Source: Halorubrum salipaludis (GTDB lineage Archaea > Halobacteriota > Halobacteria > Halobacteriales > Haloferacaceae). Taken from it: a stretch of DNA of 64,000 nt. The stretch is taken from assembly GCF_002286985.1 (NCBI RefSeq), contig NZ_NSKC01000005.1, forward strand, positions 186,001 to 250,000, in the 5' to 3' direction. This document shows positions 7,151 through 41,146 of the stretch, piece by piece; within the stretch, counting starts at the first letter, position 1; each line of letters opens with the position of its first letter. A program made the position numbers and the translations under genes. Below the pieces are notes generated by a model. It did not search any database, had not been told where the DNA came from, and worked only from the letters and a program-made list of their open reading frames with translations.

Positions 7151-8230
7151 ATGCGCGCCGCGATCCTCCGCGAGTACGGCGAACCGCTGGACGTCCGCGA
7201 GGTCCCCGACCCGGAGCCCGGCCCGGACGGCGCCGTGGTTCGCGTCGCGGCCTGCGGCGTCTGTCGGAGCGACTGGCACGCGTGGGCCGGCCACGGCGAG
7301 TGGGCCGACGACCGCGTCCCCCGCGGACAGGTGCTCGGCCACGAGCCCGCCGGCGAGGTGGTCGCGGTTGGCGACGCGGTCGAGCGCTTCGCGCCGGGCG
7401 ACCGCGTCGTCGTCCCCTTCTCGCTCGGCGACGGCACCTGTCCGCGCTGCCGGCGCGGACACGGGAACGTCTGCGACGACGGACGGGCGCTCGGCTTCGA
7501 GCCCGACGCCCCCGGCGCGTTCGCCGAGCGCGTCGCCGTCCCGGACGCCGACTACAACCTCGTCGAGCGCCCGCCGTGGCTCGGGGCCACCGCGGCGGCC
7601 GCGCTCGGCTGCCGGTACATGACGGCGTACCACGCCCTCGCGGAGCGGGCCGAACTCGGCGGCGGCGAGTGGCTGGCCGTCCACGGCTGCGGCGGCGTCG
7701 GGCTCTCCGCGGTCCAACTGGGCGACGCGCTCGGCGCCCGGACCGTCGCGGTCGACGTCGACGACGAGGCCCTCTCGTTCGCCCGCGATCTGGGCGCCGA
7801 CGAGACCGTGAACCCGACCGATCTCGGCGACGGCGAGACCGCGGTGCCGGACCGGATTCGCGACCTGACCGACGGCGGGGCGACCGTCTCGGTCGACGCG
7901 CTCGGGATCGCCGAGACGTGCCGGAACTCGGTCCGGTCCGTGCGCCCCCGGGGGACGCACGTGCAGGTCGGGCTGACCACCGAGGCCGAGCGCGGCGAGG
8001 TGTCGCTCCCGACCGACTGGATGACCCGCTGGGAGGTGTCGTTCGTCGGCTCGCGCGGGATGCCCCCGACGAGCTACGACGACCTGTTCGCCCTGATCGA
8101 AGCGACCGACGTGGACCCCGCCGCGCTGGTGAGCGACGATCTGGCGCTCTCGGCGGTCTCCGACCGGCTCGCCGCGATGGACGAGTACGACGCGCGCGGC
8201 GTTGAGGTCGTCACCGACTTCGCGAACTGA
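7151..8230 (+). CDS. Zinc-dependent alcohol dehydrogenase
   Basis: A 359-residue MDR-family dehydrogenase with both zinc sites largely intact. Catalytic-zinc ligands are visible as C38 in CGVCRSDWH, H64-E65 in GHEPAG, and a third cysteine in LGCRYMTAYHA. The structural zinc loop has C97, C100 and C108, with aspartate D94 where the first cysteine usually stands, a substitution also seen in some archaeal enzymes. The Rossmann motif is GCGGVGLSAVQ. It is expected to oxidise an alcohol or polyol with NAD(P); the substrate is unknown. Unlike the dehydrogenase at the left edge, it keeps the full catalytic site. It is monocistronic, convergent with the ABC importer operon, and preceded by a good TATA box. 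Confidence 0.93.
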   Translation: MRAAILREYGEPLDVREVPDPEPGPDGAVVRVAACGVCRSDWHAWAGHGEWADDRVPRGQVLGHEPAGEVVAVGDAVERFAPGDRVVVPFSLGDGTCPRCRRGHGNVCDDGRALGFEPDAPGAFAERVAVPDADYNLVERPPWLGATAAAALGCRYMTAYHALAERAELGGGEWLAVHGCGGVGLSAVQLGDALGARTVAVDVDDEALSFARDLGADETVNPTDLGDGETAVPDRIRDLTDGGATVSVDALGIAETCRNSVRSVRPRGTHVQVGLTTEAERGEVSLPTDWMTRWEVSFVGSRGMPPTSYDDLFALIEATDVDPAALVSDDLALSAVSDRLAAMDEYDARGVEVVTDFAN

Positions 8231-8254
8231 CGGTCCGCGGGACGGGGCCGCGTC

Positions 8255-9181
8255 TCACTCCTCGCTCCCGGAGCCGATCCCGGGGATGGCGACCCGGTCT
8301 TCGACGCGCTCCATCAGCTTCGACGCGGTGAGGACCAAGGCGAGGTACGTCACGCCGGTCACGACGAAGATGAGGGTGTACCGGAACGTCTCGGAGGCGA
8401 TCTGGTCGGCCCGGTAGTAGAGCTCGGGGACCGTGATGAAGCCCGCCAGCGACGAGTACTTGATCAGGTAGACGAACTCGTTGGTCCACGACGGGATCGC
8501 GTACCGGAGCCCCTGCGGGAGCACGACGTAGTAGATCGTCTCCAGCTTCGACAGGCCGATCGCGCGGCCAGCGGTGATCTGCCCCTCCTCGACGCTCTCT
8601 AAGGCGCCGCGGATGTACTCCGCCTGGTAGGCCGCCCCGTTGAGCGTGAACCCGAGGATCGCCACCCAGACCACGTCCCGCGCGAACACGCCCGAGAGCG
8701 CGCCGGGGACGTAGCTCGCGAGGTTGAGCCCGTAGTAGAGCACGAACAGCTGCGCGAGGAGGGGCGTCCCGCGCAACAGCTCCGTGTACCCCAGCGAGAC
8801 CCACGCCGAGAACCGGCCGTACACGCGGGCCACCGCCAGCGGGACGGCGAGGACGAAGCCGACCGCGAGGCTCACGGCGGTGATCACGACCGTGAGCCAC
8901 GTCCCCCGGGCCAGCTCCGGCGTGAGCTCGACGACGAACGCGGCGTCGGACGCGTACGCGGCGAGGCCCGGGATCGCCGCCAGCGTCGCCTCGACGGCGC
9001 CCGCCGGAACGAGCGGCTGTCCGACCGGCACGAGGACGCCCCCGAGCCATCGGTTGACCCAGCTCACGACGAGCCAGCCCCAGAACAGCGCCCCGGCGGC
9101 GACGAGGAGGAGCCGGCCGACCGAGCGATCGGAGTCGGCCACGCGTTCCCGGACCGTCGCGGGTCTCGTCGCGCTCGCCAT
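8255..9181 (-). CDS. Polar amino acid ABC transporter permease (second subunit)
   Basis: A 308-residue inner-membrane subunit of a His/Glu/Gln-type importer. After a cytosolic start and one additional hydrophobic N-terminal segment (about 25-45), the BPD_transp_1 core carries five or so helices. The cytoplasmic coupling motif reads YIRGALESVEEGQITAGRAIG, then QGLRYAIPSW. The ATG shares its A with the TGA of the upstream ATPase gene (TGATG), which fixes the start and implies translational coupling. A longer in-frame reading through the ATPase gene on this strand is an artefact of high GC. It pairs with the permease at 9924-10760, so the channel is heterodimeric. Confidence 0.93.
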   Translation of the reverse strand: MASATRPATVRERVADSDRSVGRLLLVAAGALFWGWLVVSWVNRWLGGVLVPVGQPLVPAGAVEATLAAIPGLAAYASDAAFVVELTPELARGTWLTVVITAVSLAVGFVLAVPLAVARVYGRFSAWVSLGYTELLRGTPLLAQLFVLYYGLNLASYVPGALSGVFARDVVWVAILGFTLNGAAYQAEYIRGALESVEEGQITAGRAIGLSKLETIYYVVLPQGLRYAIPSWTNEFVYLIKYSSLAGFITVPELYYRADQIASETFRYTLIFVVTGVTYLALVLTASKLMERVEDRVAIPGIGSGSEE

Positions 9182-9927
9182 CAGTCGTGACTCGCGATCC
9201 GTTCGAGGAACCGGCCGGTCCGTTCCTCCTCGGGGTGATCGAACAGCTGTTCCGGCGGTCCCCGCTCGACCACGCGGCCGTCGTCCAAGAACACGATCTC
9301 GTCGGCGACCTCGCGGGCGAAGCTCATCTCGTGGGTGACCACGAGCATCGTCATCCCCTCGTCGACGAGCCCGTGCATCACCTCCAACACCTCGCCGATG
9401 AGCTCGGGGTCGAGCGCGCTCGTCGGCTCGTCGAACAGCATGAGCTTCGGCTCCATCGCCAGCGCGCGGGCGATGCCGACCCGCTGCTGTTGGCCCCCGG
9501 ACAGCTCCGCGGGGTACGAGTCGAACTGCTCGCCGAGCCCGACGCGCTCCAGCTGCGCCTCGGCGCGCTCGCGGGCCGCCGTCTCCGAGAGGCCGAGCAC
9601 GCGCCGCGGGCCGAGCGCGACGTTGCCCACCGCGGTGAGGTGCGCGAACAGGTTGAACCCTTGGAACACCATCCCGACCTCGCGGCGGAGCTCGTCGACG
9701 TCGAGGTCCGGCGAGAGCACCTCCTCGCCGTCCAGCAGGATCGACCCCTCCTGCGCCTCCGCGAGCCGGTTGACGCAGCGCAGCATGGTCGATTTCCCGG
9801 AGCCGGAGGGACCGATCAGGACGGTCACGTCGCCCCGGTCCATCTCGAAGGAGACCTCTTCGAGGACCTTCTCCTCGCCGTACCACTTCGAGACGTCCGA
9901 CACGCGGAGGAACTCGTCGTCACTCAC
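9181..9927 (-). CDS. Polar amino acid ABC transporter ATP-binding protein (GlnQ-like)
   Basis: A 248-residue ABC ATPase that powers uptake of a polar amino acid. Walker A GPSGSGKST is at 39-47, and the Q-loop reads GMVFQGFNLF. The signature is LSGGQQQRVGIARAL, Walker B is LMLFDEPTSALDPE, and the H-loop is VVTHEM. The length and GFNLF sequence fit the PAAT family (HisP/GlnQ). Four-base overlap with the upstream permease (ATGA at 9924-9927) and a one-base overlap downstream place it in the middle of a tightly coupled four-gene operon. Confidence 0.95.
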   Translation of the reverse strand: MSDDEFLRVSDVSKWYGEEKVLEEVSFEMDRGDVTVLIGPSGSGKSTMLRCVNRLAEAQEGSILLDGEEVLSPDLDVDELRREVGMVFQGFNLFAHLTAVGNVALGPRRVLGLSETAARERAEAQLERVGLGEQFDSYPAELSGGQQQRVGIARALAMEPKLMLFDEPTSALDPELIGEVLEVMHGLVDEGMTMLVVTHEMSFAREVADEIVFLDDGRVVERGPPEQLFDHPEEERTGRFLERIASHD

Positions 9928-10760
9928 GCCGACTCCCCCTCCGGGATCGCGTAGTAGTCGCCGAGGTAGTCGAGCGCGCGGTTCGTCGTGAACGTGAGGA
10001 CGAAGTAGATTGCACTGATGAAGAGGACCACTTCGAGCACCGCGGTCGTCTGCTCCGAGAACAGGTCGTACCCCCGTGTGAGCAGCTCAGCGAGCCCGAT
10101 AGCGAACACGATGCTGGTGTCTTTCAAGACGATCGTGAACTCGTTTTGGAACCCCGGGATCGACCGGCGCAGGGCCTGCGGAACGACGACGTACCGGACC
10201 GCCTCGAACCGCGAGAGCCCGATCGAGCGTCCCGCCTCGAGCTGTCCCTCGTCGACGCTCGAAAGGGTCGCCCGGAAGATCTGCGACTGGTACGCGGCGC
10301 TGCGCAGGCCGAGCCCTAAGATTCCGGCGGTCATCGCCGAGGAGATCGTGGCGACGCCGAGGTTGATCTGCGGGACGCCGACGACGAAGTACATCACGAT
10401 GAGGATCACGACGATCGGGGTCCCGCGGAGCACGATCCCGACCGTGCTGACTGCCCGTTTGAGGTAGCCGTCGCCGTACACCTCGACCGCGCCGGCCGGG
10501 AACCCGACGACGAACCCGAGCAGGATCGACGCGACCGTGAGCCCGATCGTCAACAGGGCGCCGACGCCGAGGTAGTCGGCGTTCCGGAACACGAACTCCC
10601 AGTCCACGGCCTCGCCGACGAACGACCAGTCGGCGGACTGCCCGACGGGCGCGAGCGTCGCGAGCCCGTCGCCGGCCGAGATCGGGAGGCCGCCGCACGC
10701 CGGGAGTTCGACCGCGGCGCTGGCGGCCGCGGCGAGCGCGAGCGTCGCCGGATCCGACAT
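9924..10760 (-). CDS. Polar amino acid ABC transporter permease (first subunit)
   Basis: A 278-residue permease of the HisM/GltK type. An N-terminal hydrophobic segment (SDPATLALAAAASAAVELPA) is followed by a linker and the BPD_transp_1 core, with coupling-loop motif FRATLSSVDEGQLEAGRSIG and PQALRRSIPG. The gene starts one base after the binding-protein stop codon and its own stop overlaps the ATPase start by four bases. Together with the permease at 8255-9181 it should form the heterodimeric channel. Confidence 0.93.
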   Translation of the reverse strand: MSDPATLALAAAASAAVELPACGGLPISAGDGLATLAPVGQSADWSFVGEAVDWEFVFRNADYLGVGALLTIGLTVASILLGFVVGFPAGAVEVYGDGYLKRAVSTVGIVLRGTPIVVILIVMYFVVGVPQINLGVATISSAMTAGILGLGLRSAAYQSQIFRATLSSVDEGQLEAGRSIGLSRFEAVRYVVVPQALRRSIPGFQNEFTIVLKDTSIVFAIGLAELLTRGYDLFSEQTTAVLEVVLFISAIYFVLTFTTNRALDYLGDYYAIPEGESA

Positions 10761-10761
10761 C

Positions 10762-11559
10762 CTACTCCTGACCGAACCAGGTGCTCGTGATCTCGCTGTA
10801 CGTCCCGTCGTCGCGGACGGTCGCGAGCCCGTCGTTCAGCGCCGACTGGAACTCCGACTCGCCCTGCCGGATGCCGAAGCCGAACTGCTCGCCGGTCTCC
10901 TCGATGAACGCGACCTCCACGTCGCGGTTGGCCGCGAACGTCTCCGCGACGGGCAGGTCGATGACGACGGCGTCGACGTTCTCGTTCTCGAGGTCCTCGA
11001 CCGCGAACACGTAGCTGTCGTACGAGGAGTAGTCGTCCTCGGAGATGATCTCGGGGTCGATGAGGTTCGACGACACCTGGTCCGCGCCGGTGGTCCCGGA
11101 CTGCGCGCCCACGCGGACGCCTTCGAAGTCCTCCCACGACGACGGCTGGAAGTCGCCGCCCTCGCGCACGAGGATCGCCTGGTCGGACTCCCAGTAGGGG
11201 TCGGAGAAGGCGATCGTCTCTTGGCGGTCCTCGGTGATCGTCATCGCGGCGGCGATCACGTCGATCTCCTCGTTCTGGGTGAGCGCGGGGATGAGCGAGT
11301 CGAACTCGAAGGTGGCCCACTCGCCCAGCTCGTAGTCGGTCTCCGCGACGACGGCCTCCAGCAGGTCGATGTCGAAGCCGACCAGCTCGCCGTCCTGCTG
11401 CATCTCGAACGGCGGGAAGCCGGGCGCGGTGCCCGGGGTGATCGTGGTGCTGTCGTCGCCGAGGCAACCGGCGACGCCGGTCAGTCCGACGGCGCTTGCG
11501 CCACCGGTCAGCTTCAGGTACGTCCGACGGCTCACGTCCGTCTCCGTGCGGTATGACAT
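10762..11559 (-). CDS. Polar amino acid ABC transporter substrate-binding lipoprotein
   Basis: A 265-residue family-3 solute-binding protein and first gene of the importer operon. The N-terminus has a Tat signal (RRTYLKLTGG from residue 11) and a lipobox TGVAGC with C32, so it is exported folded and lipid-anchored outside the cell. The SBP_bac_3 core is recognisable by DIDLLEAVVAETDYE, VIAAAMTITEDRQETIAFSDPYW-type sequence and VGAQSGTTG. The closest functional class is glutamine/histidine/arginine binding, but the ligand cannot be read from sequence. I chose the ATG at MSYRTETDV, which gives the normal distance to the twin arginines; a start at 11646 would add 29 unlikely residues. Confidence 0.93.
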   Translation of the reverse strand: MSYRTETDVSRRTYLKLTGGASAVGLTGVAGCLGDDSTTITPGTAPGFPPFEMQQDGELVGFDIDLLEAVVAETDYELGEWATFEFDSLIPALTQNEEIDVIAAAMTITEDRQETIAFSDPYWESDQAILVREGGDFQPSSWEDFEGVRVGAQSGTTGADQVSSNLIDPEIISEDDYSSYDSYVFAVEDLENENVDAVVIDLPVAETFAANRDVEVAFIEETGEQFGFGIRQGESEFQSALNDGLATVRDDGTYSEITSTWFGQE

Positions 11560-11666
11560 ACCGGTGGGTGAACGGGAACTGATTTCAACCTTTCCTCCTC
11601 GGGCGGGTCGTCCGCCCGACGGAGCCTCAGACGGGTCGACCGGCACTCAGACGGATTGGCCGGCAC

Positions 11667-12560
11667 TCAGTCGCCGCGCACCGGGCCCGCCGTCGTCCCC
11701 TCCGACCCGACGCCCCTGACCGCCCACGCGGCGCCGAGCGCGAGAGCAGCGGCGACGCCGAGCGCGACGAGGTTGAGCCGCTGCCAGAACGCGGTGTACA
11801 ACACCAGATCGCGGCCTAAAAGCAGGGTGGCGACCAGCGCGGCCATCGAGCCGGCGGCGAGCAGGCGAACCGTCGCCGCGGTCGACCGATCGAGCCCCGG
11901 GTAGCCGGTCCGAACGGCCTCCGTGGCGTACGCGACGGCCGCGACGAGGCCGAGGTGACCGGCGAGTCCGGTCACGTAGAAGCCCGCCTGCGCGCCCGGC
12001 GCGTAGGTGACGAAGGGGACCGCACGCGAGAACACCGCGCTGGCGACGATTCCGACCGCGGCGACCCCGATCGCGGCCCGGAGCAGTCTCGGGGAGCCGC
12101 GGCCGCCGCCCCAGATCGTGGCCAGCCCGAGCAGGGTGAAGATCCCCAGCGCGACGATCAGGTGGGCCGCGTGCGTCGACACCGTGTACCCGCCGGGAAC
12201 GAGCCCGCCGAGGGTAACTGTGAGGGCGCCGACCGTGATCTGCAGCGGGAGGATCGCGACCGCGAGCGTCGCGGCCAGCCGGGTCCGACGGTCGAGGCCC
12301 CCGAGCCACGTCCATCCGGCGACGCCGATGATGAGGAAGCCGGTGACCATCGCCCACACGCGGTGGAACCACTCGATGAAGTCCGGGTTGATCGTCAGCG
12401 CCGGGATGAGCTGGTCGGAGCAGAGCGGCCACTGGGCCTGACACGCCAGCCCGGACCCGGTCGCCGCGGTGTAGACCCCGAGCGAGAACAACACCAGCGT
12501 CATCCCGGTCGTCGCCGCCGCGTATCGCCTGAACGTCAGCCACGCGGGCCGAAGACTCAT
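11667..12560 (-). CDS. ctaA: Heme A synthase (COX15/CtaA family)
   Basis: A 297-residue polytopic membrane protein with about eight transmembrane helices that oxidises the C8 methyl of heme O to the formyl group of heme A for terminal oxidases. Candidate heme-ligand histidines are H66 (EWFHRVW) and H130/H133 (STHAAHLIV). The cysteine pair C40 and C47 in the first external loop has the spacing of the CtaA redox pair. The start is the ATG before SLRPAWLTF. It is transcribed alone; its upstream gap holds a decayed copy of the structured repeat. Confidence 0.9.
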   Translation of the reverse strand: MSLRPAWLTFRRYAAATTGMTLVLFSLGVYTAATGSGLACQAQWPLCSDQLIPALTINPDFIEWFHRVWAMVTGFLIIGVAGWTWLGGLDRRTRLAATLAVAILPLQITVGALTVTLGGLVPGGYTVSTHAAHLIVALGIFTLLGLATIWGGGRGSPRLLRAAIGVAAVGIVASAVFSRAVPFVTYAPGAQAGFYVTGLAGHLGLVAAVAYATEAVRTGYPGLDRSTAATVRLLAAGSMAALVATLLLGRDLVLYTAFWQRLNLVALGVAAALALGAAWAVRGVGSEGTTAGPVRGD

Positions 12561-38539: not shown

Positions 38540-38785
38540 ATGGTCGACATCCTCGCGGAGAACCTCTCCGGGAAGGCGGTGATGAGCGCGGACGGAACCG
38601 AACTCGGGGACCTGTACAACATCACGATGGACCTCAAGTCGGGCGAGCTCGCCGACCTGCTCGTGAGTCCCCACGAGCACCTCAGCCCGGAGCGCTCGGG
38701 CTTCGACGTCGACGAGATGGGCCGCCTGAAAGTGCCGGTTGCGAACGTGCAGGCGGTGAAAGACTACATCGTCGTCGCCCGCTAA
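38540..38785 (+). CDS. PRC-barrel domain protein
   Basis: An 81-residue single PRC-barrel protein: ILAENLSGKAVMSADGTELGDLYNITMDLKSGELADLLVSP in consecutive segments, then VPVANVQAVKDYIVV. PRC-barrels act as small RNA- or protein-binding modules, for example in RimM and photosynthetic reaction-centre H subunit. Its TAA overlaps the ATG of the NOB1 gene (TAATG), so it is translated together with an rRNA-maturation endonuclease; a role in ribosome biogenesis is a reasonable inference. Confidence 0.88.
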   Translation: MVDILAENLSGKAVMSADGTELGDLYNITMDLKSGELADLLVSPHEHLSPERSGFDVDEMGRLKVPVANVQAVKDYIVVAR

Positions 38786-39243
38786 TGGAAGTCCTCGACA
38801 CCTCGGCGTTCATCCACGAGTACACCACCGACGACGACGTGGTCTCGGTGCCCGAAGTGCACGACGAGCTCACCGGCGAGGGGGCGCTCCGGTTCGACGC
38901 GATGGAGGGCTCCGGGATGACGATCCACGTCCCGGCCCCGGAGGTCCTCGACAACGTCCGGCGCGCCGCGCGCGGCTCCGGCGACGCCGCGGAGCTGTCG
39001 GACACGGACACCCGGCTGATCGCGACCGCGCTCGAACTGAGCGCGACGCTCGTCACCGACGACTACGCGATGCAGAACGTCGCCGAACGCCTCGACATCG
39101 CCGTCGAGGCGATCGCGCGCGACGGCATCTCCGAGGAGCGCGAGTGGCGGTTCCAGTGCGTCGGCTGTAACCGCACCTTCGACGAGAACAAGGAGCGATG
39201 TCCGATCTGCGGGAGCGACCTGACGCGGAAGAACCCGGCGTGA
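38785..39243 (+). CDS. NOB1-family rRNA-maturation endonuclease
   Basis: A 152-residue PIN-domain endonuclease plus zinc ribbon. PIN acidic residues are D5 (LDTSAFIHEY), E29 region, D73/D75 (LSDTDTRLIA) and D92/D93 (LVTDDYAMQNVA). The zinc ribbon uses C125, C128, C139 and C142 (QCVGCNRTF and CPICGSDL). Eukaryotic and archaeal NOB1 cleaves the 3' end of pre-16S/18S rRNA. It follows the PRC-barrel gene with a two-base overlap. Confidence 0.93.
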   Translation: MEVLDTSAFIHEYTTDDDVVSVPEVHDELTGEGALRFDAMEGSGMTIHVPAPEVLDNVRRAARGSGDAAELSDTDTRLIATALELSATLVTDDYAMQNVAERLDIAVEAIARDGISEEREWRFQCVGCNRTFDENKERCPICGSDLTRKNPA

Positions 39244-39532
39244 GCGAGTGAACGGGCGGCCCGCCACCGTCTGACAGCGATCGGAATCATCGGGCCGAGA
39301 GCACCCGAGCCGTTCGTTCAGTGGAATTTCTCTCTGACACATTTAAAATATCGATACTGTTTAATTGTGACATACTCAACTATAACGAGGCGTTCGGCGT
39401 GGTCGGGACGGGAGGACGGCGCGCGCCGGCGCCCGCGACGCGTGTTGACGCCGGCATCGACACGCACCGCCCGAGGTGAACCGTCCGAACGAACGACGTC
39501 GTAGTCGCCGCACACACAGAGGGGACAAGACC
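39244..39532. promoter_or_regulatory. AT-rich promoter and long leader of the tail-tube-like gene
   Basis: This 289-base gap has no supported gene. It contains two TATA-like motifs, TTTAAAATA (39342-39350) and GTTTAATTG (39359-39367), in a strikingly AT-rich patch. The next ATG is about 165-190 bases further on, and a purine-rich GAGGGGAC lies 8-15 bases before it. This suggests a leadered transcript with a Shine-Dalgarno-like site, unlike the leaderless neighbours. Confidence 0.5.
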
Positions 39533-40111
39533 ATGCTACCGACCATCGGACGGCGGACAGTGCTGCAAACGATCGGCGTCGCCGGCGCGCTGGGACTCGC
39601 GTCCGGCGCGGCGGAGGTGGAGACGGAGACGGAGGCGACCGCCGAGGCCGCCGCGCTGAACCGACACGACGCGCTGCGGACCGGCCGGTTCGAAGTCGAA
39701 CTCGACGGCGAGGCGGTGTCCGGCTGGCAGACCGTCACCATCCCGAGTCGCTCCACGGAACAGGACGAGTACCGCGAGGGCAACGACGCCGACTACGAGA
39801 AGAAGGTCTGGGGACAGACGACGTTCGACGACCTCGAGATGGAGCGGGGGCTCCAGCGCGAGGACGTCAACCGCCTCTACGACTGGCACGAAGCCGTCAG
39901 AGCGGGGAAGGCCGACGAGGGGCGGAAGGAGATCGCGGTGAAACTGCTCGACGGGCGAGGCGGAAATCCGGAGCCGCTCCTCGAGTGGCGGTTCGAAGAG
40001 GCCTGGATCAAGGAGTACAGCCCGCCCGAGCTCGACGCGAGCGCCGACGGGGACGTGGCGACCGAATCGATCACGGTCGCGTTCGACCGAATGGTCCGAG
40101 AGGAGATCTGA
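39533..40111 (+). CDS. Tat-tagged phage tail-tube-like (T4 gp19/Pvc1-type) protein
   Basis: A 192-residue protein. Residues 1-28 look like a Tat signal: IGRRTVLQTIGVAGALGLASGAA, with twin arginines R7-R8 and a hydrophobic core, but no lipobox cysteine. Residues 48-190 match the contractile tail-tube fold of gp19/Afp1/Pvc1: FEVELDGEAVSGWQTV, EYREGNDADYEKKVWGQ, LEMERGLQREDVNRLYDWHEAV, EIAVKLLDGRGGNPEPLLEW and AWIKEYSPPELDASADG. Usual family length is about 145, which equals the mature part. No sheath, baseplate, AAA or spike gene lies nearby, so it is an orphan. The start is the ATG with an upstream GAGGGGAC; an in-frame GTG at 39476 would bury the signal. Confidence 0.85.
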   Translation: MLPTIGRRTVLQTIGVAGALGLASGAAEVETETEATAEAAALNRHDALRTGRFEVELDGEAVSGWQTVTIPSRSTEQDEYREGNDADYEKKVWGQTTFDDLEMERGLQREDVNRLYDWHEAVRAGKADEGRKEIAVKLLDGRGGNPEPLLEWRFEEAWIKEYSPPELDASADGDVATESITVAFDRMVREEI

Positions 40112-40162: not shown

Positions 40163-41146
40163 TCAGTCGGTCGACGCCTCGTTCGCGTCGCCCCTTCGCG
40201 ACTCGGCCTCGATCTCGACCGCGCTCGGCCCGCCCTCCTCGCCGGGGACGGCCTCCCGGAGCGCCCCGGCGTCGACGGCGGGCAGCCGGTCGCGGAGCCG
40301 CCCCGCGACGGTCCGGGCCTCCGCGATCTCGACCTCGGCGACCGCCCGGACGAGCGCGGCCGCGCGCTCTGCCCGGTCCCGGCGCCACGACTCCTCACGC
40401 GACTGGTACGTGCGGATGGCGCGGAGGAACTCCCCCTCCGAAAACTCCGGCCAGTACGGCGCACAGAAGTAGACGGCGGCCTCGTTGCCGTTCGCGTGCC
40501 ACGGGAGGAAGTTCGAGGTGCGCTCGTCGCCGCCGGTCCGCACGATGAGGTCGACGTCGCGGACCGGGCGATCGTACAGCCGGTCCTCGACCGTCTCGAC
40601 GTCGACGTCATCGGGGTCGAGGTCGCCCGCGTCGACGTCGCGCGCGATCGTCCGGGCGGCGTCGAGCAGCTCGGTCCGGCCGCCGTACGCCAGTGCGACG
40701 TTCAGCGTGAACCGGTCGTTGTCGGCGGTGCGGCGCTCCGCGTAGTCGACCGCGTCGCGCACGCGCTCGGGGAGGCGGTCGACGTCGCCGATCGCGCGAA
40801 CGCGGACCCCCTGCTCGTGGACGCGGTCGGCGTCGGCGAACTCCCGGAGCTTGGCCTCAAGCAGGTCGAAGAGGGGCGCTAACTCCTCGTCCGGTCGCTC
40901 GAAGTTCTCGGTCGAGAAGGCGTACAGCGTCAGCTCCGCGACGCCGAGATCCGCGCACCAGTCGAGCACCCGCTCGGTGGTGGCGGCGCCTGCGCGGTGC
41001 CCGTCGGGGGCGTCGCCGCCGCGTTCGCGGGCGTACCGGCGGTTCCCGTCCTGGATGATCGCGACGTGCGTCGGCACGTCCCCGATCTGTCGGCGGAGGT
41101 GGCGGCGGTACGCGCGCTCGACGAGCTCGCGGAGGCGGTCCAACAT
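40163..41146 (-). CDS. uppS: Cis-prenyltransferase (polyprenyl diphosphate synthase)
   Basis: A 327-residue enzyme that extends allylic diphosphate with isopentenyl units to make the lipid carrier for protein glycosylation. The catalytic aspartate is D33 in IIQDGNRRYA; TLYAFSTENFERPDEEL, NVALAYGGRTEL, DLIVRTGGDERTSNFLPW and YWPEF are the remaining conserved regions. The last ~75 residues are an acidic and alanine-rich extension beyond the bacterial length, usual in haloarchaea. Divergent from the LWR-salt gene. Confidence 0.95.
   Translation of the reverse strand: MLDRLRELVERAYRRHLRRQIGDVPTHVAIIQDGNRRYARERGGDAPDGHRAGAATTERVLDWCADLGVAELTLYAFSTENFERPDEELAPLFDLLEAKLREFADADRVHEQGVRVRAIGDVDRLPERVRDAVDYAERRTADNDRFTLNVALAYGGRTELLDAARTIARDVDAGDLDPDDVDVETVEDRLYDRPVRDVDLIVRTGGDERTSNFLPWHANGNEAAVYFCAPYWPEFSEGEFLRAIRTYQSREESWRRDRAERAAALVRAVAEVEIAEARTVAGRLRDRLPAVDAGALREAVPGEEGGPSAVEIEAESRRGDANEASTD

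Follow-up and report, generated by a model that had tools for sequence, protein, structure and literature searches.

An orphan injection-system tube protein with a predicted Tat signal in Halorubrum, and a tube–fibre operon in its haloarchaeal relatives

Introduction

In phages, contractile injection systems (CISs) and T6SSs, tail-tube proteins are known as components that assemble in the cytosol. Why, then, would a haloarchaeon encode one of them on its own, behind what looks like a signal for export? We addressed this question for a gene of Halorubrum salipaludis that lies in a 64,000-nucleotide stretch of contig NZ_NSKC01000005.1 (positions 186,001 to 250,000, forward strand), to which we refer in full as the window. 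The gene is an intact ORF of 192 aa at window positions 39533-40111 (+ strand). A first-pass annotation had read its product as a tail-tube protein that is sent out of the cell by the twin-arginine (Tat) route and might build a tube there, and we examined the fold, the signal, the genomic setting and the relatives of the protein.

Results

The mature protein carries a CIS-type tube domain

The gp19/Cis1 tail-tube domain occupies residues 46-192 (39668-40108, + strand), as placed by profile, PDB and model searches, and is separated from the N-terminal signal by a fast-changing acidic linker (residues 28-45; 39614-39667, + strand) that is of low confidence in the model. PF06841 matches the mature part with an E value of 7.9e-28 (97 bits against a cut-off of 28), the PHROG tail tube profile matches it at 2.5e-16, and the TIGR02241 match lies above its cut-off. 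The CIS1_fam match (E 3.9e-35, 121 bits) falls below the curated cut-off of 220, a miss that is uninformative because a haloarchaeal CIS tube whose locus does include a sheath misses as well (138 versus 220 bits). By sequence, the nearest solved structures are CIS tubes (7b5h, 7adz and Pvc1, 6j0b).

AlphaFold modelling of the mature part gave five agreeing models (73 to 80), with a mean pLDDT of 80 and a pTM of 0.73; for the full-length protein four of the five models were poor, and its PDB neighbours were the same. When the mature model was searched against the PDB, CIS inner tubes came out on top, with query TM scores of about 0.58-0.69 in the top ten and TM values of 0.66-0.73 for nine of the top ten or so. 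Profiles, PDB matches and model comparison thus agree with the gp19/Pvc1 fold first proposed for the mature part, and, as modelled, the window protein is a gp19/Cis1-type tube protein. It shares domain, fold and loop length with the Cis1 tubes of haloarchaeal CISs (the archaeal T6SS of Halogeometricum borinquense; PMC11566945) and with eCIS tubes (Pvc1 and Anabaena All3324). Those tubes assemble in the cytosol with their sheath, whereas the window protein adds a Tat signal and sits in a genome that has no sheath, gp25 or second tube, and so departs from the usual picture of a cytosolic tube without a signal peptide. The PDB fold search also relates the window tube to Hcp of the T6SS. Hcp does end up outside the cell, leaving through the T6SS itself and without a signal peptide.

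The tube gene is alone in its genome and sits at a variable site

Within the H. salipaludis genome (99.85% complete) we found a single gp19 domain, hence no second tube, together with no sheath, as searched with a haloarchaeal sheath, and no gp25; a CIS control genome (G173) was positive in both of the latter searches. The genome therefore differs from one with a contractile injection system in having neither sheath nor gp25 from the baseplate, and an intact CIS elsewhere is ruled out with respect to sheath, gp25 and second tube. The first-pass annotation had seen no CIS genes nearby, only NOB1 and cis-prenyltransferase; that description holds, and for these three components the absence extends to the whole genome. 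An origin from a prophage or virus was rejected, as neither 50,697 phage records nor an IMG/VR pattern scan gave a match and the nearest matches are CIS tubes.

The NOB1 gene (38785-39243, + strand) forms the upstream border of the insertion site and the cis-prenyltransferase gene (40163-41146, - strand), on the strand opposite to the tube gene, the downstream border; both neighbours are housekeeping genes. An AT-rich block with a putative TATA-like element (TTTAAAAT; 39342-39349, + strand) precedes the tube gene, is mostly kept in H. saccharovorum, and probably provides the gene with its own promoter. H. saccharovorum DSM 1137 (G219, locus L083) has an ortholog that is 92% identical and bears the same signal, and the distance from NOB1 to the prenyltransferase gene is 926 bp in the window and 952 bp in that species. 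Thirteen Halorubrum relatives whose NOB1 is closely similar (among loci L091-L104) have the aligned ends of the two genes 44-258 bp apart and no tube between them, so that either the tube gene was acquired in this lineage or all other lineages have lost it. Three more distant Halorubrum loci (L105-L107) have another gene of ~1.1 kb between NOB1 and the cis-prenyltransferase gene, which looks like a DUF2891 gene. Gains or losses of genes seem to have recurred at this site.

Between the window and H. saccharovorum, dN/dS of the tube gene is 0.35, compared with 0.06-0.15 for its neighbours. This value, and the restriction of the gene to two Halorubrum species, would suit a decaying remnant, a functionless tube gene caught by chance behind a Tat signal and now being lost. 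Yet neither copy is disrupted, the two are 92% identical and dN lies well below dS; the signal has stayed in frame and free of stops, and an independent-looking Tat-lipoprotein tube occurs in another genus. We consider decay quite unlikely; judged by these substitution rates, the gene is under purifying selection, though not tightly.

The N-terminus is a predicted Tat signal that is conserved in the ortholog

Residues 1-27 (MLPTIGRRTVLQTIGVAGALGLASGAA; 39533-39613, + strand) form the predicted Tat signal peptide, with the twin arginine at residues 7-8 (39551-39556, + strand). The arginines are followed by 19 uncharged residues, and small residues stand ahead of what is probably the SPase I site. 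Since a lipobox is missing, an exported protein would, once cleaved, either be set free or be retained by partners. The N-terminus passes a Tat rule of our own, modelled on TATFIND but distinct from that program, which places the twin-arginine motif and the core within the first 35 residues. Among segments taken from inside the proteins of the window, 13 of 2124 (~0.6%) passed this rule, as did 998 of 200,000 shuffles of the protein's own N-terminus (~0.5%), so that the signal is unlikely to be a product of chance. The short NCBIfam TAT_signal_seq profile did not report the window protein at E <= 1; with this profile, a relative from genome G115 (P0004) scored above the cut-off. Hence the twin-arginine signal proposed earlier is borne out by our rule and by its retention in the 92% identical ortholog, with the NCBIfam model silent.

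Could the true start lie further downstream, leaving a stray CIS tube in the cytosol and the upstream codons unused? Signal-less homologues do exist, and the close ones start, with MPDRHGP, at the equivalent of residue 42-43. These homologues, whose existence was to count against the signal, come from other operons or from CIS loci, which makes the signal a lineage-specific addition and not the outcome of a wrong start codon. Moreover, residues 35-46 (A-T-A-E-A-A-A-L-N-R-H-D), the 12 residues to the homologous start inclusive, contain no Met or Val, and their one Leu codon is CTG, which is not a listed start. The signal is also conserved, and most of its substitutions are silent: between the window and H. 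saccharovorum, three of its codons changed synonymously and one non-synonymously. A second genus, in addition, has a Tat-lipobox version. A cytosolic protein is thus very improbable, and we think it likely, from the sequence of the signal, that the window protein is exported.

The route itself would be ordinary, because 39-55% of the secreted proteins of haloarchaea go via Tat (PMC2945643). The window protein shares with those substrates the RR motif, a long and moderately hydrophobic core and small residues at the cut; it is the cargo that is unusual, being a CIS tube domain rather than an enzyme, binding protein or redox protein.

Orphan tubes form a clade with a haloarchaeal CIS tube

The closest relatives of the window tube include a CIS tube that adjoins a sheath gene in a Halobacteriales MAG (L084; 62% identity) and the signal-less orphan tubes of Natronosalvus (62-63% identity). 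We built a quick maximum-likelihood tree of 121 tube rows; among the rows labelled CIS, the presence of a sheath was checked for G173, L084 and a Haloferax larsenii plasmid. In this tree the window, H. saccharovorum, G115, both Natronosalvus, G016, G030, G028, G013 and L086 tubes fall in one clade with the L084 CIS tube (SH-aLRT 85-86, with an unstable long branch inside), and this clade lies next to other haloarchaeal Cis1 tubes.

The first-pass annotation had suggested a search of haloarchaea for the same fusion. Besides the H. saccharovorum ortholog with its identical type of signal, the search uncovered in G115, from another genus, a Tat-lipoprotein tube with the lipobox LSGC that is flanked by two transposase-like ORFs. 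The CIS tube has thus probably been reused for export more than once. At locus L065 the Tat-lipoprotein tube gene (8983-9543) stands between related transposase-like ORFs at 7476-8780 (- strand) and 10592-11896 (+ strand), a possible mobility route for the gene.

Sister orphans are encoded with an S74 fibre and a Tat-signal partner

At seven orphan loci the tube gene is followed, after an intergenic gap of 6-13 bp, by a gene for a Peptidase_S74 protein. S74 is a self-processing chaperone of trimeric tail fibres, and the PHROG matches of the S74 partners include tail fibre proteins. Five of these loci (both Natronosalvus, G028, G013 and G030) have a third gene, which shares 8-29 bp with the S74 gene; its product has a Tat signal followed at once by a G(Y/F)G(E/D)G-rich stretch, of a G(Y/F)GEGGFG-like kind. 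The three-gene units span L067:8971-10646, L068:7754-9429, L153:6878-8761, L154:2724-5322 and L072:602-2501. For this operon, which in Natronosalvus is on plasmid NZ_CP101160, existing annotation goes no further than 'phage tail protein' and 'tail fiber domain protein'; the Natronosalvus units adjoin genes for very large beta-propeller/beta-helix proteins. The C-terminal ~45 residues of the third gene product resemble a dockerin by eye, an identity that we do not adopt, as they have no Pfam or NCBIfam match. A ~45-residue C-terminal segment is common to many haloarchaeal proteins (L153:8363-8758; L175; G267, G268 and G345), and is also present in a multicopper-oxidase-like ORF of H. saccharovorum.

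Variants of this arrangement occur at two further loci. In G016 it is the S74 protein that bears the Tat signal, and next comes another S74 protein, this one with a lipobox-like AGC site. In a Halovenus MAG, S74 is followed by a fusion of CARDB-type regions with another tube domain at the C-terminus (L086:1190-2359); close to its first CARDB-like region, this fusion also contains a fragment, TYREGNDAEYEKKTWG, that resembles a tube loop. Only 24 of 392 genomes of the order have S74 genes, so the pairing of tube and S74 is not due to chance, with the statistic serving only as a guide because the loci share ancestry. Tube pairs occur on other contigs of G028 and G013 too, and the G016 and G030 genomes are incomplete (59% and 78%), so the module may not be confined to CIS-free genomes. 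Elsewhere, many haloarchaeal S74 proteins with no tube gene nearby have a Tat signal that lies inside the ORF, 30-110 residues from its beginning (L132, L135-L138, L140, L144 and L147); these form a family of probably exported trimeric fibres, and one that seems undescribed.

How far does the module speak for the window gene? The window tube falls in the same clade in the quick tree. In the operon, though, the tube is signal-less, S74 comes after it, and five genomes add a Tat protein of its own gene, whereas the window tube bears the signal itself and stands without partners: directly downstream lies the cis-prenyltransferase gene instead of S74, and neither S74 nor a third-gene partner was found anywhere in the H. 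salipaludis genome (E <= 1e-3). The analogy is therefore indirect. Export signals on the tube, the fibre or the third partner of one clade are nevertheless the pattern expected if the product works outside, and together with the CARDB-tube fusion they provide indirect evidence that the orphan tube clade acts outside the cell. Tat is able to carry signal-less partners in a folded three-component complex, as for PaoABC (PMC4273604), and by analogy the tube and S74 protein of the three-gene form perhaps hitchhike with the Tat-signal partner. S74 fibres are present in bacterial eCIS (PMC12923769), so that tube and S74 fibre already have a precedent as parts of one complete machine.

The stacking loop is intact in the window protein and shortened in several orphans

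The stacking of tail tubes depends on a long loop that links strands 2 and 3 and touches the N-terminus of the next ring (PMC9022992). In the window protein this loop comprises residues 72-92 (SRSTEQDEYREGNDADYEKKV; 39746-39808, + strand) by alignment and model, and its 21 aa are the full CIS length; the AlphaFold model places it, at low confidence, at residues 76-95 between strands 73-75 and 96-98. The aligned loop has only 7-10 residues in 4 of the 10 orphans and 17 in one, versus at least 19 in 110 of the 111 other tube rows, and several orphans probably cannot stack as a result. For the orphan family, a single ring or a monomer is the safer guess from the alignment. The window protein itself could stack if its extra N-terminal tail allows, since the loop contacts the N-terminus of the next ring and an added tail could hinder that contact. 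We regard a stacked hollow tube as rather unlikely here. Of the exported tube first proposed for this gene, the tube fold, the predicted Tat signal and the orphan state thus stand, joined by the extracellular leaning of the clade. The hollow fibre or conduit is conjecture for this protein, and a tube is not the common state of its family.

The same loop bears on whether the protein oligomerizes at all. An exported monomer, in which the tube fold is reused without rings as a small beta-barrel at the surface or for ligand binding, would fit the loss of the loop in those four orphans, against one of the 111 other rows, as well as the lack of partner genes in the window genome. The window copy, however, keeps the whole loop, and its tube domain is still 62-63% identical to the CIS tube and the operon orphans. 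We hold the monomer to be a possible, if less than likely, state, and judge the chances of an oligomeric ring outside the cell to be evenly balanced.

Discussion

Fold, ancestry, orphan state, the sequence and conservation of the signal, and the operon of the relatives come from computation; export, cleavage, ring formation and a surface role of the window protein are what we infer from them. In the scenario that we propose, a Cis1-type tube gene would have become separated from its injection cluster, acquired a Tat signal at its N-terminus, and inserted between NOB1 and the cis-prenyltransferase gene in an ancestor of H. salipaludis and H. saccharovorum. Tat carries folded proteins, and the tube domain would fold in the cytosol and cross the membrane by this route; once the signal is removed, an acidic N-terminal tail would precede the domain. 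The exported protein, either lodged between membrane and S-layer or set free, would most likely assemble into a hexameric ring or a short stack and act as a scaffold or adhesion element at the surface. In the sister lineages, the same tube clade would do this together with a trimeric S74 fibre and a partner that bears a Tat signal, the components perhaps being co-exported. Taken as a whole, the reading of the window protein as a Tat-exported, domesticated haloarchaeal CIS inner tube that acts outside as a ring or short-tube scaffold is, in our estimate, about as probable as its negation.

An exported tube subunit might instead serve in defence or competition, by disturbing the CIS or tail tubes of rivals or by entering the machine of another strain. 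Haloarchaeal CISs kill by contact (PMC11566945) and the fold is that of a CIS tube; the sister modules, however, pair the tube with fibres and not with immunity genes, and we find this role very improbable. A broader form of the scaffold reading would posit that haloarchaea have made of CIS inner tubes a kind of extracellular structure not described so far. It would consist of rings or hollow tubes exported by Tat, in some lineages tipped with an S74-matured trimeric fibre and accompanied by a Tat-exported partner, and the window gene would be its one-gene form with its own signal. We put this forward tentatively, as an idea that is more doubtful than not. A literature search, with subscription journals outside its reach, found no paper on a Tat-exported tube or on haloarchaeal S74 proteins, and no experiment on any member of the orphan tube clade. 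As far as that literature goes, the haloarchaeal unit of tube, S74 and Tat protein is undescribed.

Our analysis suggests that CIS tube parts are reused on the archaeal cell surface and, judging by gene order, that related orphans pair with a fibre and an exported partner in a small operon. If true, the Tat-sent tube and its sister operon would be a case of injection-machine parts reused as archaeal surface structures. This reading is open to concrete test in the culturable H. saccharovorum and Natronosalvus, and would offer a possible function for many of the orphans that haloarchaeal annotation lists as 'phage tail protein'.
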